This document shows positions 4,231 through 60,293 of a DNA stretch of 64,000 nucleotides, piece by piece; positions within the stretch are counted from its first letter, which is position 1; each line of letters starts with the position of its first letter. The notes below the pieces were generated by a model. It searched no databases and was not told where the DNA came from. It worked only from the letters and a program-made list of their open reading frames with translations. Origin of the DNA: Salibaculum halophilum (lineage in GTDB: Bacteria > Pseudomonadota > Alphaproteobacteria > Rhodobacterales > Rhodobacteraceae); contig NZ_MSIT01000003.1 of assembly GCF_002094885.1 (NCBI RefSeq), positions 186,001 through 250,000 on the forward strand. Direction: 5' to 3'. The position numbers and the translations under genes are program-made.

Positions 4231-4300
4231 CGGGGGGCGCTGCCCCCCGTCGCGCAAGCGCGACTCCCCCCGCGGTATTTGGCACCCAAAGAAGCCGGGC
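4231..4300 (-). repeat. Post-stop repeat element, copy A (3' of cueR)
   Basis: On the minus strand this reads CTTCTTTGGGTGCCAAATAC, then a G-rich stretch, a 7-bp hairpin (arms GTCGCGC / GCGCGAC, 4249-4264) and a second hairpin (GGGGGGC / GCCCCCC, 4232-4248). It is nearly identical in core and layout to copy B at 41853-41921, and more distantly related to copies at 14472 and 49550. It sits about 30 bp after the cueR stop in the sense direction, in the convergent gap with argE. It probably acts as a transcription end or mRNA 3' structure. Confidence 0.7.
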
Positions 4301-14464: not shown

Positions 14465-14470
14465 CCGTTT

Positions 14471-14530
14471 GTCTTCTGGCCTTAAATATCCCGGGGTCTG
14501 GGGCAGAGCCCCAGTCCGGCGGGCGCAAAC
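14471..14530 (+). repeat. Post-stop repeat element, copy D (between soeA and soeB)
   Basis: Begins 7 bp after the soeA stop with GTCTTCTGGCCTTAAATATC and a G-run, then a 7-bp hairpin (CTGGGGC / GCCCCAG, 14498-14514). Core and layout match copies A-C only loosely, as a diverged member. It separates the catalytic subunit from soeB inside one operon, so it may adjust relative expression or mRNA stability rather than end transcription. Confidence 0.5.
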
Positions 14531-38479: not shown

Positions 38480-39478
38480 TTGAACACCACCGACACCCAC
38501 GTGACGCGCGCCGACGCGCACCTGCCGCAGGTCCATGAGCCCCGCAACGCCGGGGTGGCGGTGGACCTGTCCTGGGTGCGCGCCGTGCAGGCCAATACAT
38601 CCGCCATCGAACGCCGCGCCGCGACCCTGCCGGGCCGGCGCAGCGTCAAGAAGGATCACCAGGCCGCCTGGCTCTGCAAGGCCATCAGCCTGATCGACCT
38701 GACCACGCTGGCCGGTGACGACACGGAGGGCCGCGTGCGCCGCCTCTGCGCCAAGGCGCGCCAGCCCGCGCGCGCCGATATCCTCGACGCGCTGGGGATG
38801 CAGGGCCTGACCACTGGCGCGGTCTGCGTCTATCACGAGATGGTCGCACCGGCGGTTGAGGCGCTTCGCGGCTCGGGCATTCCCGTCGCGGCCGTCTCCA
38901 CCGGTTTTCCCGCGGGCCTGTCGCCCTACCGCCTGCGCCTCGCCGAGATCGGCGAAAGCGTCGCCGCCGGGGCCGACGAGATCGACATCGTGATATCCCG
39001 CCGCCACGTCCTGCAAGGCAACTGGCAAGCTCTCTACGACGAGATGCGAGAGATGCGCGCGGCCTGCGGCGAGGCGCATGTCAAGGCCATCCTCGCCACG
39101 GGCGAGTTGGGCACGCTGCGCAACGTCGCGCGCGCCTCGCTGGTCTGCATGATGGCGGGCGCCGATTTCATCAAGACCTCGACCGGCAAGGAGGGCGTGA
39201 ATGCCACCCTGCCCGTTTCACTCACAATGATCCGCGCCATCCGCGACTACGAGACACGCACCGGCTTCAAGGTCGGCTACAAACCCGCGGGCGGCATTTC
39301 CAAGGCCAAGGATGCACTCACCTACCTGGCCCTGATCAAGGACGAGCTGGGCAACCGCTGGCTGCAGCCTGACCTGTTCCGCTTCGGCGCCTCGTCCCTG
39401 CTGGGCGACATCGAGCGGCAGTTGGAGCATCACTTGACCGGCGCCTATTCCGTGGGCTGGCGGCACGCCGTCGGATAA
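38480..39478 (+). CDS. deoC: Deoxyribose-phosphate aldolase DeoC
   Basis: Splits 2-deoxyribose-5-phosphate to glyceraldehyde-3-phosphate and acetaldehyde. The 332-residue class I aldolase is longer than the E. coli type of about 259 because of an N-terminal extension. The Schiff-base Lys is in GADFIKTSTGKEG (about residue 232), with the second active-site Lys in VGYKPAGGIS (about 270). A TTG start at 38480 is preferred because GGGAGG lies 6-7 bases upstream; a GTG at 38447 lacks such a site. The adjacent ALDH16 could remove the acetaldehyde product. Confidence 0.9.
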   Translation: MNTTDTHVTRADAHLPQVHEPRNAGVAVDLSWVRAVQANTSAIERRAATLPGRRSVKKDHQAAWLCKAISLIDLTTLAGDDTEGRVRRLCAKARQPARADILDALGMQGLTTGAVCVYHEMVAPAVEALRGSGIPVAAVSTGFPAGLSPYRLRLAEIGESVAAGADEIDIVISRRHVLQGNWQALYDEMREMRAACGEAHVKAILATGELGTLRNVARASLVCMMAGADFIKTSTGKEGVNATLPVSLTMIRAIRDYETRTGFKVGYKPAGGISKAKDALTYLALIKDELGNRWLQPDLFRFGASSLLGDIERQLEHHLTGAYSVGWRHAVG

Positions 39479-39528
39479 GTCGGGATCGTAAGTTTATTCG
39501 CCAATATGAAGACAGGAGCGGGTCGCGC

Positions 39529-41853
39529 ATGACAGTCAAGGAGATTTTCGAGACTATGGACTACGGCCCCGCCCCGGAATCCGCCGCCCCGGCGCTGGAA
39601 TGGCTGGTGGACATGGGCGACCGGTTCGGCTGTTTCATCGACGGCAAATTCACCGACCCGGGCGAAACCTTCGAGGCGAAGAACCCCGCCACCGGCAACG
39701 TGCTGGCCCATGTCACGCAGGCCGGGCAGGCGGACGTGGACGCCGCCGTTACCGCCGCACGCAAGGCACAGGCGAAATGGGCGAAGGACGGTCACAAAAG
39801 GGCGCGCACGCTCTATGCCATCGCGCGGCTGCTGCAGAAACACGCCCGCCTCTTCGCGGTGCTGGAAACCCTCGACAACGGCAAGCCGATCCGCGAAAGC
39901 CGCGACATCGACATCCCCCTGGCCGCGCGGCATTTCTACTACCACGCTGGCATGGCCGAGCTGATGGACGAGGAACTGCCCGACCAGGTGCCGCTGGGCG
40001 TCTGTGGCCAGATCGTGCCCTGGAACTTCCCGCTGCTGATGCTGGCCTGGAAGATCGCCCCGGCGCTGGCCATGGGCAACACCGTGGTGCTGAAACCGGC
40101 CGAATACACCTCGCTCACGGCGCTTCTCTTCGCCGATATCTGCCGCCAGGCGGGCCTGCCGCGCGGCGTCGTCAACATCGTCACCGGCGACGGCGCCGTG
40201 GGCGAGATGATCACCGCCGCTGACGTGGACAAGATCGCCTTCACCGGCTCCAGCGCCGTGGGCCGCCGCATCCGCGCGGCCACCGCCGGGTCGGGCAAGG
40301 CGCTGACACTCGAACTGGGGGGCAAATCCCCCTACATCGTCTTCGAGGATGCCGATATTGACTCAGCTGTCGAGGGGCTGGTCGACGCCATCTGGTTCAA
40401 CCAGGGCGAGGTCTGCTGCGCCGGCTCGCGCCTGCTGGTGCAGGAGGGCATCGCGCCGCGGTTCTACGACAAGCTGCGCGCGCGGATGGACACGCTGCGC
40501 CTGGGCGATCCGCTGGACAAGGCCATCGACGTGGGTGCCGTGGTGGACCCTGTTCAGCTGCAGGCCATCACCAAGATGGTCGATGGCGCGCAGGGCGACA
40601 TTCACCGCACGCCCGGCCCGCTGCCGGCGCAGGGCTGCTACTATCCGCCCACGCTGATCACCGGCCTGTCCCCGGCCGACCGGCTGATGCAGGAGGAGAT
40701 CTTCGGCCCGGTCCTCGTCTCGACAACCTTCCGCACACCGGCCGAGGCGGTCGAGCTGGCCAACAACACGCGCTACGGGCTGGCAGCTTCTCTGTGGACC
40801 GAGAACATCAACCTCGCCCTCGATATCGCACCCGGACTGACCGCGGGCGTGGTCTGGGTCAACGCCACGAACCTTTTCGACGCCGCCGCCGGCTTCGGCG
40901 GCGTCCGCGAGAGCGGCTTCGGCCGCGAAGGCGGCTGGGAGGGGCTGATGGCCTATACCCGGCCCAGGGGCACGGCCAAGAAACTGTCCCCGATCGCGCC
41001 CTACACCACCGATGACGGTGACCCGATCCCGCCGCTGGACCGCACCGCCAAGCTCTATATCGGGGGCAAGCAGGCCCGCCCAGATGCCGGCTATTCGCGC
41101 CCCGTTTATACCCGCACGGGCAAGCTGCTGGGCCATGCCTCGCTGGCCAACCGCAAGGATCTCCGCAACGCGGTCGAGGCCATGACGGCGGCAAAGGCCT
41201 GGTCGGCGACCACCGGCCACCTGCGCGCGCAAATCCTGTATTATATGGCCGAGAACCTCTCGGCCCGCGCGGACGAGTTCGCCAGCCGGATCAACGCCCT
41301 GACCGGCGGCCGCTCGGGCGAGGCGGAGGTGACGCAGGCCATTCGCACCCTGTTCAAATGGGCGGCCTGGGCCGACAAGCACGACCACCGCGCCAAGCCG
41401 GTGCCCCTGCGCGGCACGGCGCTGGCCATGAATGAACCGGTCGGCAACATCGGCGTGCTCTGCGACGACGCCCGCCCCCTGATGGGCCTGATCGAGCCCG
41501 TCGCGCCGGCCCTTGCCATGGGCAACCGCGTTGCGGCCGTCGCCTCCGGCCCCTACCCGCTGTCTGCCACGGATTTCTACCAGGTGCTCGAGACCTCGGA
41601 CCTGCCCGGCGGCGTCCTCAACATCCTGACCGGCGACCACGCCGACCTCGTCCCGCACATGGCCGCCCACGCCGGGCTGGACGCGGTCTGGTCCTTCTCC
41701 TCGAGCGCCCTGTCGGCAGAGATCGAGCGCGCCTCGGCTGCCACGCTCAAACGCACCTGGGTCAACAACGGCCAGACCCGCACCTGGCCCAGCGCCACCT
41801 GGCTGGCGCAGGCGACCGAGGTCAAGACCGTCTGGATTCCCTACGGCGAATAG
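39529..41853 (+). CDS. ALDH16-type double-domain aldehyde dehydrogenase
   Basis: 774-residue protein with two aldehyde dehydrogenase units in one chain. The N-terminal unit (about residues 35-500) looks complete: PWNFPLLMLAWKIAPAL, FTGSSAVGRRI, the Glu in LELGGKSPYIV (about 265) and the catalytic Cys in NQGEVCCAGSRLLV (about 298). The C-terminal unit (about 510-774) retains the fold (NEPVGNIGVLCDDARPLMGLIEP, GGVLNILTGDH) but has no catalytic Cys motif and is truncated. That is the ALDH16 architecture, known from animals and from Loktanella, where the second domain is a pseudo-domain. It lies 50 bp after deoC, so acetaldehyde oxidation is a reasonable inference. Confidence 0.9.
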   Translation: MTVKEIFETMDYGPAPESAAPALEWLVDMGDRFGCFIDGKFTDPGETFEAKNPATGNVLAHVTQAGQADVDAAVTAARKAQAKWAKDGHKRARTLYAIARLLQKHARLFAVLETLDNGKPIRESRDIDIPLAARHFYYHAGMAELMDEELPDQVPLGVCGQIVPWNFPLLMLAWKIAPALAMGNTVVLKPAEYTSLTALLFADICRQAGLPRGVVNIVTGDGAVGEMITAADVDKIAFTGSSAVGRRIRAATAGSGKALTLELGGKSPYIVFEDADIDSAVEGLVDAIWFNQGEVCCAGSRLLVQEGIAPRFYDKLRARMDTLRLGDPLDKAIDVGAVVDPVQLQAITKMVDGAQGDIHRTPGPLPAQGCYYPPTLITGLSPADRLMQEEIFGPVLVSTTFRTPAEAVELANNTRYGLAASLWTENINLALDIAPGLTAGVVWVNATNLFDAAAGFGGVRESGFGREGGWEGLMAYTRPRGTAKKLSPIAPYTTDDGDPIPPLDRTAKLYIGGKQARPDAGYSRPVYTRTGKLLGHASLANRKDLRNAVEAMTAAKAWSATTGHLRAQILYYMAENLSARADEFASRINALTGGRSGEAEVTQAIRTLFKWAAWADKHDHRAKPVPLRGTALAMNEPVGNIGVLCDDARPLMGLIEPVAPALAMGNRVAAVASGPYPLSATDFYQVLETSDLPGGVLNILTGDHADLVPHMAAHAGLDAVWSFSSSALSAEIERASAATLKRTWVNNGQTRTWPSATWLAQATEVKTVWIPYGE

Positions 41854-41921
41854 CCCGGCTTCTTTGGGTGACAAATACCGCGGGGGAGTCCGCGCCGCGC
41901 GCGGACGGGGGCAGCGCCCCC
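41853..41921 (+). repeat. Post-stop repeat element, copy B (3' of the ALDH16 gene)
   Basis: Starts at the stop codon of the ALDH16 gene: CCCGGCTTCTTTGGGTGACA then AATACCG and a G-run. It continues with an 8-bp hairpin (GTCCGCGC / GCGCGGAC, 41888-41906) and a 6-bp hairpin (GGGGGC / GCCCCC, 41907-41921). This is almost the same unit as copy A at 4231-4300, 37 kb away. A further 7-bp hairpin (CGCCGCC / GGCGGCG, 41933-41949) follows before the convergent DUF1523 gene. Confidence 0.75.
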
Positions 41922-41990
41922 ACCTCCCGAGACGCCGCCAAAGGCGGCGGCGAGACAAGCAGGCCTGCGCCCGCGGCGCAGACCGTGCGG

Positions 41991-42665
41991 TCACTTGCCG
42001 CGCAGGCGGTCCCACCAGCGCCGCAGCCGACCCCGCCGCTCGGCGAAATCGGCCTGGACGTGGTCGATGCGGTCCTCGGCGCTCTCGGCCAGCGGGTCCA
42101 GCGTGCGTTCGCGGAACTGCCGCCACATCGCCCGCACGAAGAGCACACCCGCCAGCATCAGCACGTAGATCACGATGTTCGACCAGGGCACGGGGCGGAA
42201 ATCCTCGCCCGGGGCGGGGCGGATCGACACCGCGTTGGGATATATCGACAGCCAGTTGATGCGCCAGCCGTAGTGGGTGATCACCACCCAGTCATACGGC
42301 GCCTCGGTCGAGATCGCCGCCCCCGCCTCGGCCTGCAGGTCGGCGCTGTCGAACTTGAAATAGGGCGGGTAGATCCAGCCGGTATCCTCGTTGCGATACA
42401 CCATGGTCTGGTTGCCGCCCCGGATCAGGCCGAACAGGTAGGTCCGTTTGCGCTGGGAATTGATGAACCTGAGGTCGCGCGACAGGCTCTCGGCGTTGCC
42501 CGTGTCCGTCTGCGCGAAAAAGATCCGGTTGAGCCCCGACAGATCGGTGCGCACGACCTCGGTCGAGGTCACCCGGGCGACGTCGCGATGCGGCAGCACG
42601 TAGTGCAGCCAGAGGGCGAGGATTACGAGGATCGTGATGCGGAACGCACGGCGGATATTGCGCAT
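41991..42665 (-). CDS. DUF1523 family membrane protein
   Basis: 224-residue protein of a family found mainly in Rhodobacterales, function unknown. There is an N-terminal membrane segment (about residues 8-24), a periplasmic domain (about 30-160) containing RKRTYLFGLIRGGNQTMVYRNEDTGWIYPPYFKFDSADLQ, typical of DUF1523, a second membrane segment (about 164-182) and a charged C-terminal tail ending RRWWDRLRGK. It lies 12 bp downstream of a small membrane-protein gene with the same orientation, so the two are probably one operon. Confidence 0.82.
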   Translation of the reverse strand: MRNIRRAFRITILVILALWLHYVLPHRDVARVTSTEVVRTDLSGLNRIFFAQTDTGNAESLSRDLRFINSQRKRTYLFGLIRGGNQTMVYRNEDTGWIYPPYFKFDSADLQAEAGAAISTEAPYDWVVITHYGWRINWLSIYPNAVSIRPAPGEDFRPVPWSNIVIYVLMLAGVLFVRAMWRQFRERTLDPLAESAEDRIDHVQADFAERRGRLRRWWDRLRGK

Positions 42666-42677
42666 GTCGGACTCTTT

Positions 42678-42938
42678 TCAGTTTACGACAAGTATGATGG
42701 CACCGACCAGGATCGGCGGGATGACGTAGACAAGCAGGATCAGCCGCCGTCTCAGGCTGGCCTCGTACTCTTTCATGCCCTCCTTGACAAAGGCGTCGCG
42801 GTGGATGCCCTCGGGCCGGGTCTCTTCCCATTCGGCCTCCAGCTTCTCGCGCCGGACCGAGCGCGAATAGAGTGACACGCAGACATAGACCACGGTAAGG
42901 ACGAGGAACCCGAAGATAACCAGCCGGACAAAGTTCAT
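42678..42938 (-). CDS. Small two-TM membrane protein, uncharacterised
   Basis: 86 residues with membrane segments near residues 4-24 (VRLVIFGFLVLTVVYVCVSLY) and 66-85 (ILLVYVIPPILVGAIILVV), joined by a charged, helical loop (RREKLEAEWEETRPEGIHRDAFVKEGM). The ATG at 42938 has AAGAGG eight bases upstream; a GTG nine bases earlier is an alternative. It is probably co-transcribed with the DUF1523 gene. No function recognised. Confidence 0.72.
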   Translation of the reverse strand: MNFVRLVIFGFLVLTVVYVCVSLYSRSVRREKLEAEWEETRPEGIHRDAFVKEGMKEYEASLRRRLILLVYVIPPILVGAIILVVN

Positions 42939-43060
42939 CTCTCGCACCTCTTGAACGCATGTGCCGAACGGGCCCGTCGTCCCGGCCCATCCTGTTTACA
43001 GCATATCGGGGCGGGCGAAAGGCCGCGATGGGGCTCCTCCGCGCAGCCGGCTTCTCCGAC

Positions 43061-43405
43061 CTACCATTCCTTCTCCCGCCACCGTTTCGGCAGGCTGGCC
43101 ACACCGAGCACCATCACCGGCCCCCAGAGCAGGGCCGAAATCGCCCCAAGTTCCAGAAAATGCCCCAGGAATGCGACCCATCCGTCGCGCAACAGGGCCG
43201 ACCAGTCGATGCCCTGCGCGAGGTAGAGCACCGTGAAAAAGGCAATCCCGAGCACCATCATGACCAGGGCCGAGCACAGGCCGAGCAGGATAAGCGCTTT
43301 CACCCCCTCGGGAAAAACGTGGAACAGCAGGCGTGGAACGGACCACCCCATGGCCGCCAGCGCAAGCGCCGGAACGATCAGGTCAAGCCCCACACCTCCG
43401 GTCAA
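43061..43405 (-). CDS. Hypothetical membrane protein with three hydrophobic segments
   Basis: About 114 residues with three hydrophobic stretches (LIVPALALAAMGWSVPRLLF; ALILLGLCSALVMMVLGIAF and the following residues; GAISALLWGPVMVLGVASL) and a basic end (PKRWREKEW). The start is uncertain. A TTG at 43405 has GGAGGAAAGG about 9 bases upstream and is preferred; the frame extends to another TTG at 43459. It lies on the same strand just downstream of the L,D-transpeptidase gene. No family recognised. Confidence 0.55.
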   Translation of the reverse strand: MTGGVGLDLIVPALALAAMGWSVPRLLFHVFPEGVKALILLGLCSALVMMVLGIAFFTVLYLAQGIDWSALLRDGWVAFLGHFLELGAISALLWGPVMVLGVASLPKRWREKEW

Positions 43406-43476
43406 ATCCGAACCCTTTCCTCCGCGGCCGCGCTGACCCCTGTCAGTCGCATACGACAAACACGGACGCGGCTCAT

Positions 43477-44247
43477 TCAGGCCTCATCCGGCGCCGCCGG
43501 GGCCTCGTCAGCGGTCACATCCGTGGCGCCGTAGATGGAAGCAGGGTCCACGATAGTGGGCGGCAGCTCCTCGCCGCGGTTGGCCAGATCTTCGCCCTCG
43601 GCAGCGACGGATTCCTCGTAGGTCCGCACGGTCACGCGCGCGCCACGTTCGACCCGTTCGTAGAGGTCGATGATATCCTGGTTGAACAAGCGGATGCAGC
43701 CCGCGGATCCGGAATTGCCAATCGAGGGCAGGTCGTTGGTGCCGTGAATGCGAAAGAAGGTGTCGCGCCCGTTCTGGTAGAGGTAGAGCGCCCGCGCACC
43801 CAGCGGGCTGGCCAAGCCGCCCTCGACGCCGTCGGCGAAGGGGCCGTAAACCTCGGGCTGCGTGCGCAGCATGTTGGCAGTGGGCGTCCAGCCGGGCCAT
43901 TCGCGTTTCATCCCCACGGTGGAATCCCCCCGCATCCGCAGCCCGGCGCGGCCCACGGCGATGGGATAGCGCATGGCGGCACCGTCTTCCTCGACGAGAT
44001 AGAGAAACTTGGCATGGGGATCGACGACGATGGTGCCCGGCGATTCGGAGCCGTCGTAGACGACGGGCATGCGCCGGTTGACCCCCTGCAGGTGCTTTGC
44101 CGGGACCGGCGGCAGGACATATTCACCGTCCTCCAGCGCGCCATACCCCGCGACCGGGCCACCCGGGATCAGCCCGGCGCCGCCGGAACACCCCGCGACG
44201 GCCAACAGTGACGCAAGCGTAAGCACGAGGCGGAAAACATGGCGCAT
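43477..44247 (-). CDS. L,D-transpeptidase (YkuD domain) lipoprotein
   Basis: 256-residue envelope protein. The lipobox LLAVAGC predicts lipid attachment at Cys20. The YkuD catalytic domain (about residues 65-215) has TIVVDPHAKFLYLVEEDGAAMRYPIAVGRAG and the active site HGTNDLPSIGNS-SAGCIRLFNQDI, with catalytic His and Cys. Such enzymes form 3-3 peptidoglycan cross-links or attach proteins to peptidoglycan. After the domain there is an acidic, Ala/Glu/Pro-rich tail of about 35 residues (ending DEAPAAPDEA) without a known role. The start at 44247 is chosen because the signal sequence begins there. Confidence 0.88.
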   Translation of the reverse strand: MRHVFRLVLTLASLLAVAGCSGGAGLIPGGPVAGYGALEDGEYVLPPVPAKHLQGVNRRMPVVYDGSESPGTIVVDPHAKFLYLVEEDGAAMRYPIAVGRAGLRMRGDSTVGMKREWPGWTPTANMLRTQPEVYGPFADGVEGGLASPLGARALYLYQNGRDTFFRIHGTNDLPSIGNSGSAGCIRLFNQDIIDLYERVERGARVTVRTYEESVAAEGEDLANRGEELPPTIVDPASIYGATDVTADEAPAAPDEA

Positions 44248-44372
44248 GGGACGGTATCCTGTTGAATTCTGGCGCAGCCTAGCAGGCCCGCGCGCCGAGG
44301 CAATCCCGCCGATCCCGGCCGGGCCCATTCTATCCCCGATGGACCCGGGAGCCGGAAACGCCCGGTCGGGCC

Positions 44373-45575
44373 TCAGCCGACCACGTTGAACTCCGGGCCA
44401 TAGGGATACCCGGTGATGCGATCGTTGCCGTCATCAGTAATGACCAGGATATCATGTTCCCGGTACCCGCCGGCGCCGGGCTGGCCCTCGGGGATGGTCA
44501 GCATCGGCTCCATCGAGATGACCATCCCCGGTTCGAGGACCGTGTCGACATCCTCGCGCAGTTCCAGCCCCGCCTCGCGGCCGTAGTAGTGGCTGAGTAT
44601 CCCGAAGGAGTGGCCATAGCCGAAGGTGCGGTAGTGCAGCAGGTCGCGCTCTGCGAGGAAGTCGTTGATCTTTTCGGTGATCGTGGCACAGCTCACGCCG
44701 GGCTTCAGCAGGGACATGCCGTATTCATGCGCCGCGATGTTGGCCTGCCAGATCCGCAGGCTGGCCACGTCGACCTCGCCCAGGAACATCGTCCGTTCCA
44801 GAGCCGTGTAATATCCCGAGATCATCGGGAAGGTGTTCAGGCTGAGGATGTCGCCGCGCCCCAGCCTGCGGGCCGTCACGGGGTTGTGGGCGCCGTCGGT
44901 GTTGATGCCCGACTGGAACCAGACCCAGGTGTCGCGATACTCGGCCTGGGGAAACCTGTCGGCGATTTCCAGTTCCATCGCGTCGCGGCCGGCCATGGCC
45001 ACGTCGATCTCGCGCGCGCCCTCGCGCACCGCCTCGCGGATGGCATAGCCGCCCGTGTCGGCCACCGCGGCGCCGGCCCGGATCAGCGCGATCTCGGCGT
45101 GCGACTTACGCATGCGCTGGGCCATGGTCGCCGGCGCGATATCCAGAGTCAGGGCCGGTTCCAGCATATCCTCCAGCAGATCCCGCTGCGCGAGGGTCAT
45201 GTGGTCGGCCTCGATCCCGATCGCGGCACCTGTGCCGGTCACGGACCTTATCGCGCGCCAGTAGTTGTTCCGCCGCCAGTCCGTGTAGGTGATGCTGTCA
45301 TCGAAGGATCGCCGCCAGGGCTGCGCGGCGTCGATGCCCGCGCTGATAGTCACGCAGTCGGTCTCGGTCACGACCAGTCCATAGGGCCGGCCGAAGGCGC
45401 AGTAGAGAAAACCCGCGTAGTAGGCGATGTTGTGCATCGAGGTGAGGACGCAGGCCCCGATGCCGCTCTCGTCCATCGCGGCACGCAGGCCGGCGAGCCG
45501 CGCCTCGTATTCCGAGGCCTCGAAGGGCAACACCCGGTCGCCCTGGTGAAAACGATAGAAGTCGGGACGGTCCAT
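44373..45575 (-). CDS. Creatinase (creatine amidinohydrolase, M24 fold)
   Basis: Hydrolyses creatine to sarcosine and urea; cytoplasmic homodimer. The 400 residues match creatinases of about 403 residues over the whole length: MHNIAYYAGFLYCAFGRPYG in the N-terminal domain, GAHNPVTARRLGRGD holding the general-base His (about residue 230), TALERTMF with Glu (about 260), GHSFGILSHYYGREAGLELRED, and SMEPMLTIPEGQPGAGGYREHDIL with the last Glu (about 355). It is pita-bread fold like methionine aminopeptidase, but creatinases work without metal. No creatininase or sarcosine oxidase gene is adjacent, so the rest of the route must be elsewhere. A related dimethylsulfoniopropionate- or Xaa-Pro-type hydrolase is less likely. 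Confidence 0.82.
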   Translation of the reverse strand: MDRPDFYRFHQGDRVLPFEASEYEARLAGLRAAMDESGIGACVLTSMHNIAYYAGFLYCAFGRPYGLVVTETDCVTISAGIDAAQPWRRSFDDSITYTDWRRNNYWRAIRSVTGTGAAIGIEADHMTLAQRDLLEDMLEPALTLDIAPATMAQRMRKSHAEIALIRAGAAVADTGGYAIREAVREGAREIDVAMAGRDAMELEIADRFPQAEYRDTWVWFQSGINTDGAHNPVTARRLGRGDILSLNTFPMISGYYTALERTMFLGEVDVASLRIWQANIAAHEYGMSLLKPGVSCATITEKINDFLAERDLLHYRTFGYGHSFGILSHYYGREAGLELREDVDTVLEPGMVISMEPMLTIPEGQPGAGGYREHDILVITDDGNDRITGYPYGPEFNVVG

Positions 45576-45684
45576 GTCTGGCCCCCTTTGCTGAAAGAGG
45601 TCCCGGCGTTCAGGACGACAAGGCGCAGGAAACCGGGGGCGACGCCATCGCGCCCAGCGCGGTCACGTCCGTAGGCGAGCGGGG

Positions 45685-45706
45685 AACAAAATTCCAGAAT
45701 TTTGTT
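45685..45706. repeat. Palindromic element, copy 1 (centre TTCTGGAA on the minus strand)
   Basis: Perfect 10-bp inverted repeat AACAAAATTC / GAATTTTGTT with a 2-nt centre, an AT-rich island in the 214-bp divergent gap between the creatinase and DUF418 genes. With its flanks it aligns with the palindrome at 57805-57832 over 28 bp with about three quarters identical positions and the same 2-nt centre. Rest of the gap 45576-45789: no coding sequence recognised. Confidence 0.6.
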
Positions 45707-45789
45707 GCCGCCCGGCCCCGTCTGCAGTGCATTTTAAACAGTGGGCCGACCGGCCGGCATATTCCTCTCCGCCCGATCAAAGGCCGACC

Positions 45790-46908
45790 ATGACCGAAAG
45801 CAGCCGCGCCCTCATGCCCGACTACCTGCGCCTCGTTGCACTGTTCGGAATCGTCGTGGTGAACGTGCAATACATCGCCTTCTCCTCGCTTCACGGTATT
45901 GTCGATCCGGGCGGCATCACGCCCGCGGACGCCGTCACGCTCTGGCTGGTCAACGGGCTTGCGACGCTCAAGACCTATGGCCTGTTTTCCTTCATGTTCG
46001 GGGTCGGGCTGGGCTTTCTGATGCGATCGGCAGACCGGCAGGGACTGGCTTTCGGCCGCATCTACCGCAACCGCATGCTCGGCCTGCTGTTTCTGGGCAT
46101 CGCGCATGGCTGCCTGTTCTTTCCCGGGGATATCCTTGTCATCTACGCGGTGGTCGGCACCATCCTCTACCGCGTTCGGAGCTGGCCGGCGGGCCGGCTC
46201 GTGCGCCTCGGCGCGGCGCTATTGCTGGTCCAGGTGGTGATCGCGCCGCCCATCCTGTTGTCGATACCGGACGCGCCGGCCGATATGATTGCCCGCGAAC
46301 GCGAGATCATCACCCGAGGCAGCTTTGCGGAGGTGGTGCTGTTCCGGGCCATCGGCTTCGCCTTTGCCCTGCCCGTCTTTCTGATTGTCCAGGGCACCGC
46401 CGCGCTGGGATGGTTCTGCCTGGGACTGGCGGCGGTGAAAACAGGCATGATCGACAATGCGGCGCATCCGCTCTGGCGGCGGGCGCGCCGTGCTTGCCTT
46501 GGTCCCGGCCTCATCCTAAGCCTCGGCGCCGCCGCGGCATGGCAATGGGGTCCGGGCGTTGCAGGCGCTGCCCTGACCATCGCGGTCGCGCCGATCGCAA
46601 CGCTCGGCTACCTCGGTCTGATCGCCGCCACCGCCCGTCCGCCCGGCCCGCTTCTGTCCCGCGCCCTCGTGGCCGGCGGATCGAGCCTGAGCATCTATCT
46701 CGGCCATTCCATTCTGCTGTCGACACTTTTCGCAGGCTACGGCCTGGGGCTGTGGGGCGCGGTCGACCGGGCCACCGCGACGGGGATCGCCCTTGCCGTC
46801 ACCCTCGCCCTGATCTGCGTGGTCGCGATCTGGCGCATGCGCTTCTCTCTAGGACCGTTCGAATGGGTCTTGCGGCGGATCACCCATGCCGGCGGCGCAC
46901 GGGCCTGA
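45790..46908 (+). CDS. DUF418 / YeiB-family membrane protein
   Basis: 372 residues with about nine hydrophobic segments. The N-terminal LRLVALFGIVVVNVQYIAF (about residues 14-32), the FSFMFGVGLGFLMRSADRQG segment (about 76-95) and RNRMLGLLFLGIAHGCLFFPGDILVIYAVVG (about 103-133) are typical of DUF418 (YeiB) proteins. The C-terminal SLSIYLGHSILLSTLFAGYGLGLWGAVDR is the conserved DUF418 domain. The family is related to membrane acyltransferases, but the activity is unknown. The ATG at 45790 removes a low-complexity upstream extension. Confidence 0.85.
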   Translation: MTESSRALMPDYLRLVALFGIVVVNVQYIAFSSLHGIVDPGGITPADAVTLWLVNGLATLKTYGLFSFMFGVGLGFLMRSADRQGLAFGRIYRNRMLGLLFLGIAHGCLFFPGDILVIYAVVGTILYRVRSWPAGRLVRLGAALLLVQVVIAPPILLSIPDAPADMIAREREIITRGSFAEVVLFRAIGFAFALPVFLIVQGTAALGWFCLGLAAVKTGMIDNAAHPLWRRARRACLGPGLILSLGAAAAWQWGPGVAGAALTIAVAPIATLGYLGLIAATARPPGPLLSRALVAGGSSLSIYLGHSILLSTLFAGYGLGLWGAVDRATATGIALAVTLALICVVAIWRMRFSLGPFEWVLRRITHAGGARA

Positions 46909-47013
46909 CAGCGGGCCGGGCACGGATGGCTGGTCATTGGCGGCCTGATGGCGCAGGGTGTGCGGCATGACCGATCGCGCCATGGCAACCAACGGCCCCG
47001 GGCGCCGCACCCG

Positions 47014-47991
47014 ATGACGGCAGGTGCACGCAACCTCATCACCGACGTCGCCGGCCTGCGGGTGGGCAACGCGCAGGACGCGCGGTTGAAATCCGGCGTC
47101 ACGGTCCTGACCGCCGAGGACCGTTTCACCGCCGGCGTCGCCGTCATGGGCGGCGCCCCCGGCACCCGCGAGACCGACCTCCTGGCCCCCGACAAGACGG
47201 TGCAGCAGGTTGACGCGCTGGTCCTGTCGGGCGGCAGCGCCTTCGGCCTCGCCGCCGCCGACGGCGTCGCGACGGGCCTGCGCGCGATGGAGCGCGGCTT
47301 TGCCGTTGGCCCCCACCGCGTGCCCATCGTGCCCGCCGCGATCCTCTTCGACCTGATGGCCGGCGGGGTACAAGACTGGCAGGACACTCCCTATCCCGGT
47401 CTCGGCCGGGCCGCACTGGTGGCCGCCGGACCCGACTTCGCGCTGGGCAGCGCCGGGGCGGGCACAGGCTGCACCACCGCCACGGTCAAGGGCGGGCTGG
47501 GCTCGGCCTCGGCGCGGCTGGCCTCGGGGCATACCGTGGGCGCGCTGGTCGCCGTCAACGCGCTGGGCAGCGCGACGGTGGGCACCACGCGCCACTTCTG
47601 GGCCGCGCCCTTCGAGCAGGGCACCGAGTTCGGCGGCCTCGGCCCCGCCCCGACCTTCCCAGCGCATCACCCGACCAAACTGGACGCCGCGCCCAACACG
47701 ACCCTCGCCGTCGTGGCCACCGATGCCGCGCTTGACCAGGCCCAGTGCACCCGCATGGCCACCGCCGCGCATGACGGCCTGGCCCGAGCGCTGGTGCCCG
47801 CGCATACGCCCATGGACGGTGACCTTGTCTTCGCCGCCAGCACCGGGGCAAGGCCGCTGTCGGAGCCCGTGGCCGAAACCCTCGCGCTGGGCCATGCCGC
47901 GGCCACCTGCCTGGCCCGGGCCGTCGCCCGGGGCGTCCATGCGGCGAGCCCGGCGCCGGATGATCCCCTGCCCTGCTGGTCCGCCGGATGA
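47014..47991 (+). CDS. P1 family peptidase (DmpA-type L-aminopeptidase/D-esterase)
   Basis: 325-residue N-terminal-nucleophile hydrolase that should self-cleave to an alpha/beta heterodimer. Markers are ITDVAGLRVGNAQDARLKSGVTVL (about residues 9-32), LVLSGGSAFGLAAADGV (about 69-85), GAGTGCTTATVKGGLGSAS (about 150-168) and PNTTLAVVATDAAL (about 228-241), where the Thr after Asn is the predicted nucleophile and cleavage site. It acts on N-terminal residues or beta-peptides, with the substrate unknown. The ATG at 47014 matches the family start. Followed by gabD-like dehydrogenase with a 73-bp gap. Confidence 0.87.
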   Translation: MTAGARNLITDVAGLRVGNAQDARLKSGVTVLTAEDRFTAGVAVMGGAPGTRETDLLAPDKTVQQVDALVLSGGSAFGLAAADGVATGLRAMERGFAVGPHRVPIVPAAILFDLMAGGVQDWQDTPYPGLGRAALVAAGPDFALGSAGAGTGCTTATVKGGLGSASARLASGHTVGALVAVNALGSATVGTTRHFWAAPFEQGTEFGGLGPAPTFPAHHPTKLDAAPNTTLAVVATDAALDQAQCTRMATAAHDGLARALVPAHTPMDGDLVFAASTGARPLSEPVAETLALGHAAATCLARAVARGVHAASPAPDDPLPCWSAG

Positions 47992-48064
47992 GGGCCCCGC
48001 CCCCTTGGCCGGGCCGCGCCGGGGCCATAACCTGCCACGTAGCACCCGAATCGAAAGGCCGAGC

Positions 48065-49537
48065 ATGACAGCGCCCACATCCCTCGAGGACATCCTCTCC
48101 CGCCCCGACCTGGTGATCGAACAGGCCCTTGTCGGGGGCGAGTGGATCGACGGCCCCGAGGGTGCCACCTTCGATGTGACCAACCCCGCCCGCGGCGATG
48201 TCATCGCCCGCGTCGCCGACCTCGACCGCGCGCAGGCCGCCCGGGCCATCGCGGCCGCCGAAGAGGCCCGCCACCCTTGGGCCGCGCGCACCGCCAAGGA
48301 CCGCGCCGGGGTCCTGCGCCGCTGGTTCGACTTGATGATGCGCCACCAGGAGGACCTCGCCCGCATCATGACCGCGGAACAGGGCAAGCCGCTGGCCGAA
48401 GCGCGCGGCGAGGTTGCCTATGGCGCGTCCTTCATCGAGTGGTTCGGCGAAGAGGCCAAGCGCCTTTACGGCGAGACCGTCCCCGGCCACCAGCCCGACA
48501 AGCGCATCACCGTGATCCGCCAGCCCGTGGGTGTCTGCGCCTCGATCACGCCCTGGAACTTTCCCATCGCCATGATCGCGCGCAAGGTGGCCCCGGCGCT
48601 GGCGGCGGGCTGCGCTATGGTCGCCCGGCCGGCCGAACTGACCCCGCTCTCGGCGTTGGCCATGGCGAAACTGGCCGAAGAGGCCGGCGTGCCGCCGGGC
48701 GTCTTCTCAGTCGTGACCGGGACCGACGCCGCGGGGCTGGGCCGCGAGTTCTGCGAGAACCCGCTGGTGCGCAAGTTGACCTTCACCGGCTCCACGCAGG
48801 TGGGCCGGCTCCTGCTGCGCCAGGCCGCCGACCAGGTCATGAAATGCTCGATGGAGCTGGGCGGCAATGCCCCCTTCATCGTCTTCGACGACGCCGACAT
48901 CGACGCCGCCGTCGCCGGGGCCATCGCCTGCAAGTTCCGCAACACCGGCCAGACCTGCGTCTGTGCCAACCGAATCTACGTGCAGGACGGCATCTACGAC
49001 ACCTTCGCCGCCCGCCTGAAAGACGCCGTCGCGGCCCTGCGCGTCGGCGACGGACTGGCCGACGACGGCGCCGACCTCGGGCCGCTGATCTCGGCCGCGG
49101 CGGTCGACAAGGTGCAGGATCACCTCGACGACGCGCTGGCCAATGGTGGCACCGTCCTGACAGGCGGCAACCGGATCGGGGGCCAGTTCTTCGAACCAAC
49201 GCTGCTGGGCGAGGCCACGCCCGCGATGAAGGTCGCCACCGAGGAAACCTTCGGCCCCTTCGCCCCGCTGTTCCGCTTCACCGACGAGGACGAGGTCATC
49301 GCCATGGCCAACGACACGATCTTCGGGCTGGCCTCGTATTTCTACGCGCGCGACATCTCGCGCGTCCACAAGGTCGCCGAGGCGCTGGACTACGGCATCG
49401 TCGGCATCAACACCGGGATCATCTCGACCGAAGCCGCCCCCTTCGGCGGCGTCAAGCAGTCGGGCCTGGGCCGCGAGGGCTCGGCCCACGGCATCGACGA
49501 GTTCACCGAGATGAAGTACATGTGCCTTGCGATCTGA
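48065..49537 (+). CDS. gabD: NAD(P)-dependent succinate-semialdehyde dehydrogenase (GabD-like)
   Basis: 490-residue aldehyde dehydrogenase. Sequence order: TPWNFPIAMIARKVAPALAAGCAMVARPAE (about 160-190), FTGSTQVGRLL (about 240), the general-base Glu in MELGGNAPFIVFDDADID (about 264), the catalytic Cys in NTGQTCVCANRIYV (about 298) and the C-terminal FGGVKQSGLGREGSAHGIDEFTEMKYMCLAI, a close match to GabD. It oxidises succinate semialdehyde to succinate (GABA or polyamine breakdown). No GABA transaminase is adjacent. The preceding gene is a P1 peptidase on the same strand. Confidence 0.87.
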   Translation: MTAPTSLEDILSRPDLVIEQALVGGEWIDGPEGATFDVTNPARGDVIARVADLDRAQAARAIAAAEEARHPWAARTAKDRAGVLRRWFDLMMRHQEDLARIMTAEQGKPLAEARGEVAYGASFIEWFGEEAKRLYGETVPGHQPDKRITVIRQPVGVCASITPWNFPIAMIARKVAPALAAGCAMVARPAELTPLSALAMAKLAEEAGVPPGVFSVVTGTDAAGLGREFCENPLVRKLTFTGSTQVGRLLLRQAADQVMKCSMELGGNAPFIVFDDADIDAAVAGAIACKFRNTGQTCVCANRIYVQDGIYDTFAARLKDAVAALRVGDGLADDGADLGPLISAAAVDKVQDHLDDALANGGTVLTGGNRIGGQFFEPTLLGEATPAMKVATEETFGPFAPLFRFTDEDEVIAMANDTIFGLASYFYARDISRVHKVAEALDYGIVGINTGIISTEAAPFGGVKQSGLGREGSAHGIDEFTEMKYMCLAI

Positions 49538-49549
49538 ACCGCGCGCCCG

Positions 49550-49640
49550 CGTCTTCGGGTGCCCAAATACCGCCGCCGGAGGCCCCCGCCTGCCACCGGC
49601 GCGGCCTGGGGGCGGCGCGTCACCCCGCCGCTGGCGGAAT
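49550..49640 (+). repeat. Post-stop repeat element, copy C (3' of gabD-like gene)
   Basis: Starts 13 bp after the stop with CGTCTTCGGGTGCCCAAATA then CCGCCG, a diverged version of the core in copies A and B. It is followed by GC-rich sequence that can fold (GCCCCC / GGGGGC over a long loop) and by a 5-bp hairpin CCGCC-GCT-GGCGG. It lies between two convergent genes, so a terminator role is plausible. Confidence 0.5.
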
Positions 49641-49658
49641 GAAAGCGCGCGGACGCGC

Positions 49659-50399
49659 TCAATTCGGCAGCCAGTCCAACCCGTCCTGCGTCGCCTCGCG
49701 CGGGTGGTAGTCGGCCCCGACCCAGCCGTCGTAGCCGTCGGCGTCCAGCCGCGCGAAGAACGCGGGATAGTCCACGGCCCCGCCCGCAGGCTCATGCCGG
49801 CCCGGCACCCCGGCCACCCGGACGTGGCGCACCCAGGGGGCCACCGCGGCCCAGGTGCCCGGCACGTCGCCGGTGATGCGATGGGCGTGGTAGGCGTCGA
49901 ACTGCAGGCCGAGGTTGGGGGCGCCGATCTCGTCCAGCAGGGCCAGCGCGACCGAGAAATCGTCGAGGAAATCGCCCGGCCGGTCGGCGGGATTGACCGG
50001 CGCGATGGTCAACTGCCGGCCCTGCGCGGCCTCGGCGGCCCAGGCCAGGTTGTCGGCGAAGACGCCCGCCGCCTCGGGGCCTTCGGCGACGCCCGACATG
50101 ACGCGCAGCCGCTGCGCGCCCAGCGCGTCCATCGTGCGCAGGCTGCGCTCGAACACCGCGCGGAACCGCGCCTCCTGCCCCGGCACAGCGGCGAGGCCCG
50201 CCGGGTCGGGTGGCGGGCATGTGACCAGCGCCAGAGGCAGGCCCGCCGTGTCGAGCGCCCGCTGCAGCGCCGCGGTGTCCGCGTCATGGGGCAAGGCGAT
50301 CTCGGCGCCCGCGAAACCGGCCGCGGCGGCCTGCGCGGGCCGCTCCAGCAGCGGGGCTTCGGTGAAAAGCGTCGTCAGGTTGGCGCAGAATCGGGGCAC
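49659..50399 (-). CDS. Hydroxypyruvate isomerase-like TIM-barrel protein
   Basis: 246-residue xylose-isomerase-like TIM barrel, resembling Hyi/OtnI-type hydroxypyruvate isomerases (hydroxypyruvate to tartronate semialdehyde). Supporting segments are PRFCANLTTLFTEAPLLERPAQAAAAGFAGAEIALPHD (N-terminus to about residue 37), TIAPVNPADRPGDFLDD (about 128-144) where a family Glu is replaced (see findings), LGLQFDAYHAHRITGD (about 160-175) and HVRVAGVPGRHEPAGGAVDYPAFF (about 187-210). GTG at 50399 is the likely start, 13 bp after the upstream DUF1285 stop. Role in glyoxylate or glycerate metabolism is inferred, in keeping with the glycolate oxidase operon 8 kb away. Confidence 0.78.
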   Translation of the reverse strand: MPRFCANLTTLFTEAPLLERPAQAAAAGFAGAEIALPHDADTAALQRALDTAGLPLALVTCPPPDPAGLAAVPGQEARFRAVFERSLRTMDALGAQRLRVMSGVAEGPEAAGVFADNLAWAAEAAQGRQLTIAPVNPADRPGDFLDDFSVALALLDEIGAPNLGLQFDAYHAHRITGDVPGTWAAVAPWVRHVRVAGVPGRHEPAGGAVDYPAFFARLDADGYDGWVGADYHPREATQDGLDWLPN

Positions 50400-50412
50400 G
50401 GCGCGCCGCGGC

Positions 50413-51003
50413 CTAGGGAAGCTCGGCCGCGGGGATGATCGGAAAGAACACCCCCTGCGAGCGCAGGCCGAACCAGTCTTCCCCGTCATGCGGCGCCGTC
50501 TCGCCGATCTCGACCAGGCGGTAAAAGGACTTGCGGTCGATCAGCGCCTCCAGGTTACGCCGGATCAGGACGTAAGGAGACGGCTCGCCCGTCTCGGGGT
50601 CACGCGCGACGCGGATAGGGTGCTCGGGCCCGGCCATGGCATGATCGCCCACGTTGGTCTCGAACCGCAGCGCATCGCCGTCGCGTTCGAAATCCACCGC
50701 CACGAAGGGCGCATCCTCCACGGTGATGCCAACCTTTTCGACGGGGGTGACGAGGAAATAGTCGTCCCCGTCCTTGCGCAGGATGGTCGAGAACAGCCGC
50801 ACCAGTTCGGGCCGGCCTATGGGCGTGCCCAGGTAGAACCAGGTGCCGTCGCGGGCGATGCGCATGTCCAGGTCGCCGCAGAAGGGCGGGTTCCAGTCCT
50901 CGACCGGCGGCAATCCGCGCCCCTTGCTGGCGGCGCGCGCCGAGGAGGCTATGTTTTCAGCCGAGACGGTCACGGAGGTGTCAGAGGGGTTTGTCTTTGC
51001 CAT
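50413..51003 (-). CDS. DUF1285 domain-containing protein
   Basis: 196-residue cytoplasmic protein of a conserved proteobacterial family with no assigned role. The DUF1285 core spans about residues 30-190: PPVEDWNPPFCGDLDMRIARDGTWFYLGTPIGRPELVRLFSTIL, then a mixed sheet with YFLVTPVEKVGITVEDAPFVA, and the end DWFGLRSQGVFFPI. The ATG at 51003 is preferred; another ATG nine codons upstream (51030) is possible and would leave only 36 bp to the divergent moxR gene. It probably shares a divergent promoter with the moxR operon. Confidence 0.83.
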   Translation of the reverse strand: MAKTNPSDTSVTVSAENIASSARAASKGRGLPPVEDWNPPFCGDLDMRIARDGTWFYLGTPIGRPELVRLFSTILRKDGDDYFLVTPVEKVGITVEDAPFVAVDFERDGDALRFETNVGDHAMAGPEHPIRVARDPETGEPSPYVLIRRNLEALIDRKSFYRLVEIGETAPHDGEDWFGLRSQGVFFPIIPAAELP

Positions 51004-51066
51004 TGGGGCCGGGCGCGATATCTGTTCCATTGCAGGTTATACATAGTCTTTGCAGGAGAATTTGCC

Positions 51067-52074
51067 ATGGCCGATGATGCCGAGCTAGTCGCCGAAATGG
51101 ACGCGCTGGGCGAGCGTCTTGCCGCGGCCCGCAGCGCCATCGCGCGCCGCTTCATCGGCCAGGAAAGCGTGGTCGACCTGACCATGGCGGCGCTGCTGTG
51201 CGGTGGCCATGCGCTGCTGATCGGGTTGCCGGGGCTGGGCAAGACGCGGCTGGTCGACACCCTGTCCACGGTCATGGGCCTGACGGGCAACCGCATCCAG
51301 TTCACCCCCGACCTGATGCCGGCCGATATCCTAGGCTCCGAGGTGCTGGAAACCGGCACCGATGGCGCGCGCAGCTTCAAGTTCATCGAGGGGCCGATCT
51401 TCTGTCAGCTTCTCATGGCCGACGAGATCAACCGTGCCAGCCCGCGCACGCAGTCGGCCCTGTTGCAAGCCATGCAGGAAAAGGAAGTCACCATCGCGGG
51501 CGCGCACCGCCGCCTCGCGCCGCCCTTCCACGTGCTGGCCACTCAGAACCCGATCGAGCAGGAAGGCACCTACCCCCTGCCCGAGGCGCAGCTGGACAGG
51601 TTCCTGGTGCAGGTCGACGTGCCCTATCCCGACCGCGACACCGAGCGCGACATCCTCATGGCGACCACCGGCGTGGCCGAGGACACCGCGCCCAACGTCC
51701 TGACCGCGGATCAGTTGCTGGAGGCGCAGACCCTGCTGCGCCGGATGCCGGTGGGCGAGGCCGTGGTCGAGATGATCCTCGATCTGGTGCGGGCCTGCCG
51801 CCCGCAGGACGAGGCCGCCCCGCAGATCGTGCGCGACACCGTCAGCTGGGGGCCGGGGCCGCGCGCCGCGCAGGCGCTGATGCTGACCGTGCGGGCCGAG
51901 GCGCTGCTCCATGGCCGGCTCGTGCCCGGCGCCGAGGACGTGCGCCGCATGGCCGCGCCGGTCCTGAGCCACCGCATGGCGCTGTCCTTTGCCGCCCGCG
52001 CGCGTGGCGAGAGCCTGGCGCAGGTCATCGCGCAGGTCGCCGACCGCATCACCCGCATCGAGGCCGCCGCGTGA
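51067..52074 (+). CDS. MoxR-family AAA+ ATPase
   Basis: 335-residue MoxR ATPase, a chaperone-like motor believed to act on VWA-domain partners. Walker A is in GLPGLGKTRLVD (about residues 54-65), Walker B in LLMADEINRASPRTQSALLQAMQEKEVTI (about 116-144, with the sensor-type Asp-Glu), then the HVLATQNPIEQEGTYPLPEAQLDRFL signature (about 156-181) and the C-terminal helical lid. AGGAGA precedes the ATG. It is the first gene of a four-gene operon in which all junctions overlap by 1 to 4 bases. Confidence 0.92.
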   Translation: MADDAELVAEMDALGERLAAARSAIARRFIGQESVVDLTMAALLCGGHALLIGLPGLGKTRLVDTLSTVMGLTGNRIQFTPDLMPADILGSEVLETGTDGARSFKFIEGPIFCQLLMADEINRASPRTQSALLQAMQEKEVTIAGAHRRLAPPFHVLATQNPIEQEGTYPLPEAQLDRFLVQVDVPYPDRDTERDILMATTGVAEDTAPNVLTADQLLEAQTLLRRMPVGEAVVEMILDLVRACRPQDEAAPQIVRDTVSWGPGPRAAQALMLTVRAEALLHGRLVPGAEDVRRMAAPVLSHRMALSFAARARGESLAQVIAQVADRITRIEAAA

Positions 52075-60193: not shown

Positions 60194-60220
60194 CACCATC
60201 GAACCCCGGGGGCGCTGCCC

Positions 60221-60261
60221 GTCGTCATTGTCTCTCGGATCCATGGCGCGACAATGACGAC
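60221..60261. repeat. 12-bp inverted repeat in the glcD-glcE gap
   Basis: GTCGTCATTGTC (60221-60232) and GACAATGACGAC (60250-60261) are perfectly complementary, separated by 17 nt. It fills most of the 100-bp gap between glcD and glcE, the only non-overlapping junction of the operon. An A-run, not a T-run, follows, so it is not a normal terminator. mRNA processing or stability is possible. Confidence 0.6.
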
Positions 60262-60293
60262 CCCAAAAAAATTTCGAGCCAGAAGATGCCAGC

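Follow-up and report, generated by a model that had tools for sequence, protein, structure and literature searches.

A family of short hairpin-forming repeats near stop codons in Salibaculum halophilum and its relatives

The repetitive extragenic palindromic (REP) sequences of Escherichia coli block 3'-5' exonucleases and form a border between transcripts. Such repeats, together with bacterial interspersed mosaic elements (BIMEs) and REP doublets forming hairpins (REPINs), and including GTAG- and CGTC-tagged forms, are treated in the available portions of PMC3733652 and PMC3116915. The available part of PMC8632094 describes HRC-8-4, a hairpin restricted to the Rhodobacterales that lies mostly at ccoP/ccoG and has a U-run and a conserved loop. 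Here we describe a dispersed repeat from a 64,000-nucleotide stretch of Salibaculum halophilum (contig NZ_MSIT01000003.1, positions 186,001 to 250,000; hereafter the window). The element under study, copy C at 41.9 kb, is one of five copies in the window, termed A to E (Table 1). Its copies constitute a large family of short, hairpin-forming dispersed repeats that lie between genes and occupy one bacterial family. No description of the repeat was found among the matches listed from the open-access literature, outside which most subscription journals lie. Likewise, it was not met in the available portions of PMC12306157, PMC3733652, PMC1590033, PMC5107571 and PMC8632094.

A sequence-only reading of the window had noted four copies of a repeat with a shared core, and these are real. 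The core CTTTGGGTGNCAAATACCGC occurs without mismatch at 4272-4291 (minus) and 41862-41881 (plus) in a window search that allowed up to three mismatches, while 100 dinucleotide shuffles contain no match; copies B and D are diverged. Copies A (4.2 kb) and C are the two best and are identical at 60 of 68 aligned columns. An alignment of 41 copies served to build a covariance model, R1. As copies A, B and C are among these sequences, their R1 matches hold by construction. The model also identified the fifth copy, E. In the S. halophilum genome (2.9 Mb, 66 contigs), R1 was scored on 150 of 3,818 candidates and gave 55 matches at E<=1. Four without a recognisable core (C66:38552, C14:27915, C56:113885, C2:58368) were dropped by eye, and overlap with a predicted gene exceeds 10 nt in only two of the remaining 51 copies. 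Genome G021 holds 148 R1 matches at E<=0.01 (150 candidates scored), of which 77 are on the plus and 71 on the minus strand. Copies per genome range from tens to more than 100.

The repeat is widespread within one family, f1, and rare beyond it. This family is apparently the Rhodobacteraceae, a name taken from named relatives with the exact core and from plasmid matches. R1 at E<=0.001 matches 22 of 41 relatives (19 of 25 inside the family; 3 of 16 outside, with 1-4 matches each), and at E<=1e-4 it matches 114 of 149 family genomes and 113 of 148 sampled genera, with 35 candidates scored per genome. A strict pattern matches 103 of 198 genomes of f1 and two of 285 other genomes of the class. 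A class scan with this pattern found matches in four of 289 genomes, two in the family and two outside it (single matches, G037 and G413), and the reversed pattern, used as a control, was absent from the matches listed. The hairpin class of copy D, searched with the pattern AAATAYYSCCGCCGGAGGC, matches 87 of 120 family genomes, again with no control match among those listed, and the two hairpin classes adjoin in G110 and G061 with starts approximately 40-75 bp apart. Among named genomes, the exact core is found in Salibaculum griseiflavum and the metagenome-assembled genome GSL.Bin4; one more match, in Thiohalobacter, is chance-like, and loci L016 and L037 were left out as chance matches. Matches to copy C occur in eight annotated plasmid records, each of them from Paracoccus, Marinibacterium, Roseinatronobacter or Salipiger. 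At one annotated Roseinatronobacter site a plus-strand copy lies between two plus-strand genes; the P. denitrificans record has only four annotated features. Against Rfam (4227 families) at gathering score, the window matches only two tRNAs and the repeat matches nothing. A phage-borne origin was considered and rejected, with two weak phage matches (E 0.2 and 0.6) and 32 matches in 2.9 million viral contigs. Fourteen of the 32 are on contigs of 13.6-14.8 kb, which we presume may be host or gene-transfer-agent DNA.

The sequence-only reading held that all copies are in the same sense as the gene before them and took this as a sign of a role at the RNA level or of a mobile repeat with biased insertion. 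The wider counts overturn this rule. Three of its four copies (at 4.2, 41.9 and 49.5 kb) have convergent genes on their two sides, and in such a gap a copy pointing either way is sense to one of the two, so the rule could not fail there; copy E lies antisense to both of its neighbours. Copies were placed between genes predicted with a codon-model gene finder. In S. halophilum, the 51 copies comprise 23 in tandem gaps in antisense, 10 in tandem gaps in sense, 14 in convergent gaps and four in divergent gaps, an antisense excess within tandem gaps of 23:10 (p 0.035). G021 leans the opposite way, with 25 sense and 13 antisense copies (p 0.07) beside 34 convergent and five divergent ones; here 77 of 81 matches were placed; L135 and L156, both duplicates, were dropped along with the two matches of lowest score. 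Pooled, the tandem copies of the two genomes number 35 in sense and 36 in antisense. On orientation, the sequence-only reading thus fails the check that it had itself proposed, and the counts lend no support to a strand-specific RNA role. Loci from relatives, placed with the S. halophilum codon model so that some genes may be misplaced, gave eight antisense, seven sense, six convergent and one divergent copy (22 in all). In Salibaculum loci, a set selected on sequence in which some sites recur, 33 copies fall into 15 antisense, five sense, seven convergent, five divergent and one at an edge. Before these two sets were counted, five of 60 matches were dropped (L048, L120, L121, L122, L126:1444). 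Sense-only orientation is ruled out by the counts in S. halophilum, its relatives and G021, which corrects a tempting inference drawn from four copies. A replication-oriented motif, similar to FtsK-orienting polar sequences (KOPS), was also rejected given the 77 plus and 71 minus matches of G021 and the lack of significant runs in four of its contigs (lowest p 0.09).

These counts bear on two readings of the repeat as a transcription signal. The first, as originally proposed, is a sense-strand element of the 3' untranslated region or a terminator. Copies A to D each follow a stop in sense, and tandem-sense copies in S. halophilum often abut the stop, with seven of ten starting within 8 nt. However, 23 of the 33 tandem copies in that genome are antisense, as is copy E, and none of the 51 copies has at least five T among the 8 nt that follow the hairpin. 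This proposal is largely refuted by the orientation counts and is now very improbable. The second is an intrinsic terminator acting on the opposite strand, in which the complement of the conserved AAATA (GGUAUUU or longer) would supply a short U-tract behind the hairpins. The minus strand of copy C indeed reads as a hairpin and then GTATTTG, many G021 copies would read GGTATTTTTGG, and the antisense excess of S. halophilum points the same way. The reversed ratio of G021 does not, the U-tract is short, and terminator-like matches in window positions 39000-52000 do not exceed those in shuffles (4 vs 5.6). In addition, locus L110 has a conventional hairpin and T-run beside the element. We regard an opposite-strand terminator as unlikely, though less so than its sense-strand counterpart.

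Copies are kept mainly near stop codons, in either orientation, a result of moderate strength. The model match of each of the four first-noted copies begins 2-31 bp past a predicted stop, in agreement with the earlier description. The window was not chosen for its copies. Among its gaps of at least 60 nt, copies occupy three of four convergent gaps (the fourth holds a tRNA), two of 15 tandem gaps and none of nine divergent gaps. Across the S. halophilum genome, four of 51 copies lie between divergent gene starts, as compared with nine of 28 window gaps of at least 60 nt that are divergent (p 0.009). With moderate confidence, the copies avoid divergent starts. A preference for convergent gaps is held with low confidence. 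For G021, base rates were taken from 183 gaps of at least 60 nt in 400 kb at fixed positions, of which 15% are convergent and 23% divergent. In windows of this genome chosen for copy density, 21 of 49 copy-holding gaps are convergent (p 2e-6); of its 30 best-scoring loci, 12 are convergent (p 0.0007) and three divergent (p 0.05). The claim of non-random position therefore stands in part: copies are rare between divergent starts, whereas the convergent preference appears in three samples and not in the fixed-position DNA of G021.

Avoidance of divergent starts, the convergent excess of some samples and the indifference to orientation would also be expected of a site acting in the DNA. Such a site, topological or bound by a nucleoid protein, would take up supercoils at 3' ends, with gyrase-binding BIMEs or GapR sites as models, and would not need covarying stems. 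The convergent excess is absent from the fixed-position sample, and no significant orientation blocks are seen along the four G021 contigs. We consider a DNA-level site improbable.

In the element, a core of approximately 20 nt (TCTT..GG....AAATAyC) leads into a G-tract (G1). There may then be a hairpin 1, whose sequence varies, before a second hairpin in which tract G2 pairs with a C-tract. Its consensus reads as a T-rich start (TCTT, TTTTC or TCATC), a variable middle, AAATAyC, G1, optional hairpin 1 and G2-CAGMG-C. The GC hairpins described by the sequence-only reading were borne out as two each in copies A and C and one in B; copy D carries a different motif, CGCCGGAGGC. Palindromic, hairpin-forming capacity is evident from covarying stems. 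In hairpin 1, all seven pairs show two-sided changes among the 41 copies; 83.5% of cells are paired while the sequence is rewritten between copies. The two helices together have 36 two-sided cells, compared with 10.8 in shuffles, and none of 500 shuffles was as high. Controls with slid helices gave at most nine two-sided cells in five of six versions and 14 in the sixth. Among 25 distinct short forms, the two bases flanking the G2:C helix on either side (the last two of the spacer and the two after the C-tract) pair in 25 and 21 forms, respectively, through several pair types. A constant helix within the core, TTTGG/CCAAA, is present only in some copies, and the two bases before AAATA vary; it was rejected as a family feature.

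The tract lengths are also coupled. When at least 4 nt are required in each tract, G1 equals G2 in 32 of 34 S. halophilum copies (shuffles: mean 12.7, highest 22) and 39 of 50 in G021 (mean 19.1, highest 30). In Salibaculum loci (21 of 23; mean 16.1, highest 21) and other relatives (18 of 23; mean 13.3, highest 18), the count only equals the highest shuffle. Overall, G1 equals G2 in 110 of 130 distinct elements, and all three tracts are equal in 103. Among the matches listed from the family scan, 131 distinct strings include 118 with G1 equal to G2 (shuffles: mean 73.7, highest 88) and 96 with all three equal. More than one tract set was seen with each of seven spacers. With three of these (TCC, TGT, TGC) the tracts change only as whole 4/4/4, 5/5/5 or 6/6/6 sets; the remaining four show changes in the C-tract only, one of them also with a 6/6/6 set.

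Pairing accounts for the lengths of G2 and C, not of G1. The coupled tracts are a clean structural puzzle. Candidate explanations include exchange pairing of G1 with C, a three-stranded fold, and common descent of sub-families. Alternatively, G1 may pair in part with C-rich sequence that precedes the core; such pairing appears in folds and weakly in the profile. Templated correction of quasi-palindromes is a further candidate. If the element can adopt two exchangeable folds (G1:C or G2:C) or a three-stranded G1*G2:C form, it would act across the family as a nucleic-acid switch with two states, placed at gene borders and spreading as a repeat, rather than as a passive palindrome. We see only a slim chance of this.

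The earlier suggestion of a mobile repeat fits the data, given the high copy number, arrays, inverted pairs and presence or absence among congeners. At site A, the element is in the same place in S. halophilum and the congeners G001 and G003, and was not seen there in G002. Site B, between soeA and soeB, has no element in G001 and G003, in both of which the soeA stop and the soeB start share an ATGA; G002 has a degraded element and a small open reading frame (ORF). Copy presence thus differs between related species at this site, by gain in S. halophilum or by loss in the others. Target-site duplication is a candidate at copy B, as ATGACCG stands on both sides of it in S. halophilum, yet the small ORF of G002 starts with ATGACC there. 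Site E is occupied in the same orientation in S. halophilum and all three congeners, which carry an ordinary element. Head-to-tail arrays are found in G021 (L163, L165, L168, L173) with steps of 107-121 bp, and of 216 bp in L173. Inverted pairs occur in S. halophilum, G021 and G082: G082 has eight plus/minus pairs with starts 33-53 bp apart among 33 places listed, and S. halophilum has four core-to-core pairs with 5 or 116-119 bp between them.

Several further observations concern these sites. At the soeA-soeB junction of G002 (L209/L203), the small ORF over the soeA stop seems, in an alignment read by eye, to run into the element remains, and in S. halophilum this frame likewise looks open through copy B. 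Small proteins may acquire C-termini from the repeat. At the gabD site (49537-49659), the congeners G001, G002 and G003 hold approximately 1.4, 5.3 and 2.4 kb between aligned flanks, compared with approximately 0.14-0.17 kb in S. halophilum, and DNA was therefore gained or lost there. Core-to-core pairs approximately 116-130 bp apart (L007, L094 and L101 in S. halophilum; L126 in G009, of another genus) share a conserved spacer stretch, GCGGTACAGGC.G.G..GCCGATGA.CGC, which has no Rfam match at gathering score. This stretch is possibly a small RNA or a tiny ORF.

Gain or loss at soeA-soeB, the arrays and inverted pairs, and the indifference to orientation are what a selfish or neutral non-autonomous repeat would show. 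Such a repeat would be spread by some transposase or by replication slippage, would survive wherever it breaks no promoter or coding sequence, and would have no host function. It is the main rival explanation and is favored further by the flat gap-type occupancy of fixed-position G021 DNA. On the other side are orthologous copies kept with their paired stems rewritten (upstream of one shared gene end in L008, L025 and L050, and at site A) and the matches in 113 of 148 sampled genera. We judge a purely selfish repeat doubtful, though more probable than any of the terminator, DNA-site or switch readings.

The explanation we favor, to which we give about an even chance, is a REP-like repeat family that is tolerated at, or acts as, hairpins at 3' borders in either orientation. 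The family would spread by some route; tests for a REP-associated tyrosine transposase (RAYT) in copy-bearing genomes found none. By analogy with E. coli REP sequences, GC hairpins just 3' of a stop codon would, once transcribed, block 3'-5' exonucleases and form a border between neighboring transcripts. Being palindromic, they could do so whichever way the element points. It is probably on the core that spread or protein binding depends. On this analysis, the role of the hairpins at 3' borders is most likely useful or at least harmless.

Several points weigh against this explanation. Much the same picture would be expected of a repeat that is purely selfish and tolerated in 3' gaps. In the 400 kb of fixed-position G021 DNA, copies occupy gaps of at least 60 nt evenly (convergent 2/27, tandem 7/113, divergent 2/43); in this sample one of 12 matches was dropped (L270:826), 12 of 13 elements were placed, and one looks spurious. 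The convergent excess of G021 appears in samples drawn by score or density. The shuffles used for covariation ignore relatedness, and the 41 copies include orthologues. Minimum folding energies of six sequences are no better than those of shuffles (z -1.34 to +0.22), and the evidence for structure is consequently covariation rather than energy. Finally, the usual partner of REP sequences is missing, as searches for RAYT (Y1 transposase, PF01797) gave no match in S. halophilum or in 18 copy-bearing genomes. Among 29 genomes, PF01797 was found only in G018 and G073, both without R1 matches; G018 has four matches to the copy-D pattern.

Table 1. Copies of the repeat in the window, with R1 scores and flanking genes. 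Gene names in brackets are those of the sequence-only reading.
Copy	Coordinates	Strand	R1 score (bits)	Features	Flanks
A	4233-4297	-	77.4	core and two hairpins; tracts G6/G6/C6	31 bp 3' of MerR-family gene stop (cueR); 10 bp from convergent M20 peptidase stop
B	14467-14513	+	35.6	second core type TCTTCTGGCCTTAAATATCCC; short form, one hairpin; G4/G4/C4	molybdopterin oxidoreductase gene (soeA) / 4Fe-4S protein gene (soeB)
C (under study)	41856-41921	+	81.5	core, G5, hairpin 1, then G5-CAGCG-C5 hairpin	2 bp 3' of aldehyde dehydrogenase gene stop (two matched stretches); 69 bp from convergent DUF1523 gene stop
D	49547-49584	+	14.1 (49547-49575, core only)	core TCTTCGGGTGCCCAAATACC, then other hairpin class GCCGCCGGAGGCC	after aldehyde dehydrogenase gene (gabD); convergent TIM-barrel gene opposite
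E	60210-60291	-	21.9	diverged core TCTTCTGGCTCGAAATTTTTTT; position of hairpin 1 taken by a longer palindromic module	between two + strand FAD-binding oxidase-type genes, antisense

The longer palindromic module of copy E has an inner GCGCCATTGGTCCGAG-like stretch and stands where hairpin 1 would be, both at this site and at G000 C6:60262 (L084). The same module is found in G021 (L161:1354-1438, L178:12080-12165, L281:17982-18066, L282:8550-8637), making two genera in all. Possibly the module is a repeat in its own right that was inserted into hairpin 1 or exchanged for it. The element is often followed on its 3' side by a second recurrent motif, which resembles AATGAAAGCG or takes the form of a small variable hairpin, e.g. 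GTGCGCAGCAC (window 49639-49661, L005, L018, L033 and others). This recurrence suggests a mosaic of repeat modules.

Through matches in 113 of 148 sampled genera and up to 148 or more copies per genome, the repeat shapes the DNA between genes in a major family of marine and soil bacteria. Compared with described systems, it resembles intrinsic (Rho-independent) terminators in placing a GC hairpin soon 3' of a stop. It differs from them in that none of the 51 S. halophilum copies has a T-rich tail in sense, only a short one in antisense, and in that its sequence is highly identical between unrelated loci. As far as the available part of PMC8632094 describes them, attC sites (OTH-22-1) are likewise imperfect intergenic palindromes, but the consensus of the element lacks their RYYYAAC motif. 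HRC-8-4, as described in the same part, shares the restriction of a hairpin motif to the Rhodobacterales; the element is set apart from it by description, being dispersed and without a U-run in sense.

The closest comparison is with REP, BIME and REPIN sequences, as the available portions of PMC3733652 and PMC3116915 present them. The element differs from these in having no constant tag: CGTCTT stands at the 5' end in seven of 51 S. halophilum copies and GTAG in two. It is not equated with CGTC-tagged repeats because CGTC precedes only those seven copies. Unlike REP sequences, it has a conserved core outside the hairpin, hairpins of changing sequence and no RAYT in S. halophilum or the 18 copy-bearing genomes searched. 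With constant tag and RAYT both missing, it is not filed as a classical REP. An apparently REP-like system of this kind could open the spread and upkeep of such DNA to study outside the RAYT paradigm. In other respects the likeness is close, as the element and the REP, BIME and REPIN sequences are all short extragenic palindromes that occur in tens to more than 100 copies, in both orientations, and form inverted pairs and arrays.

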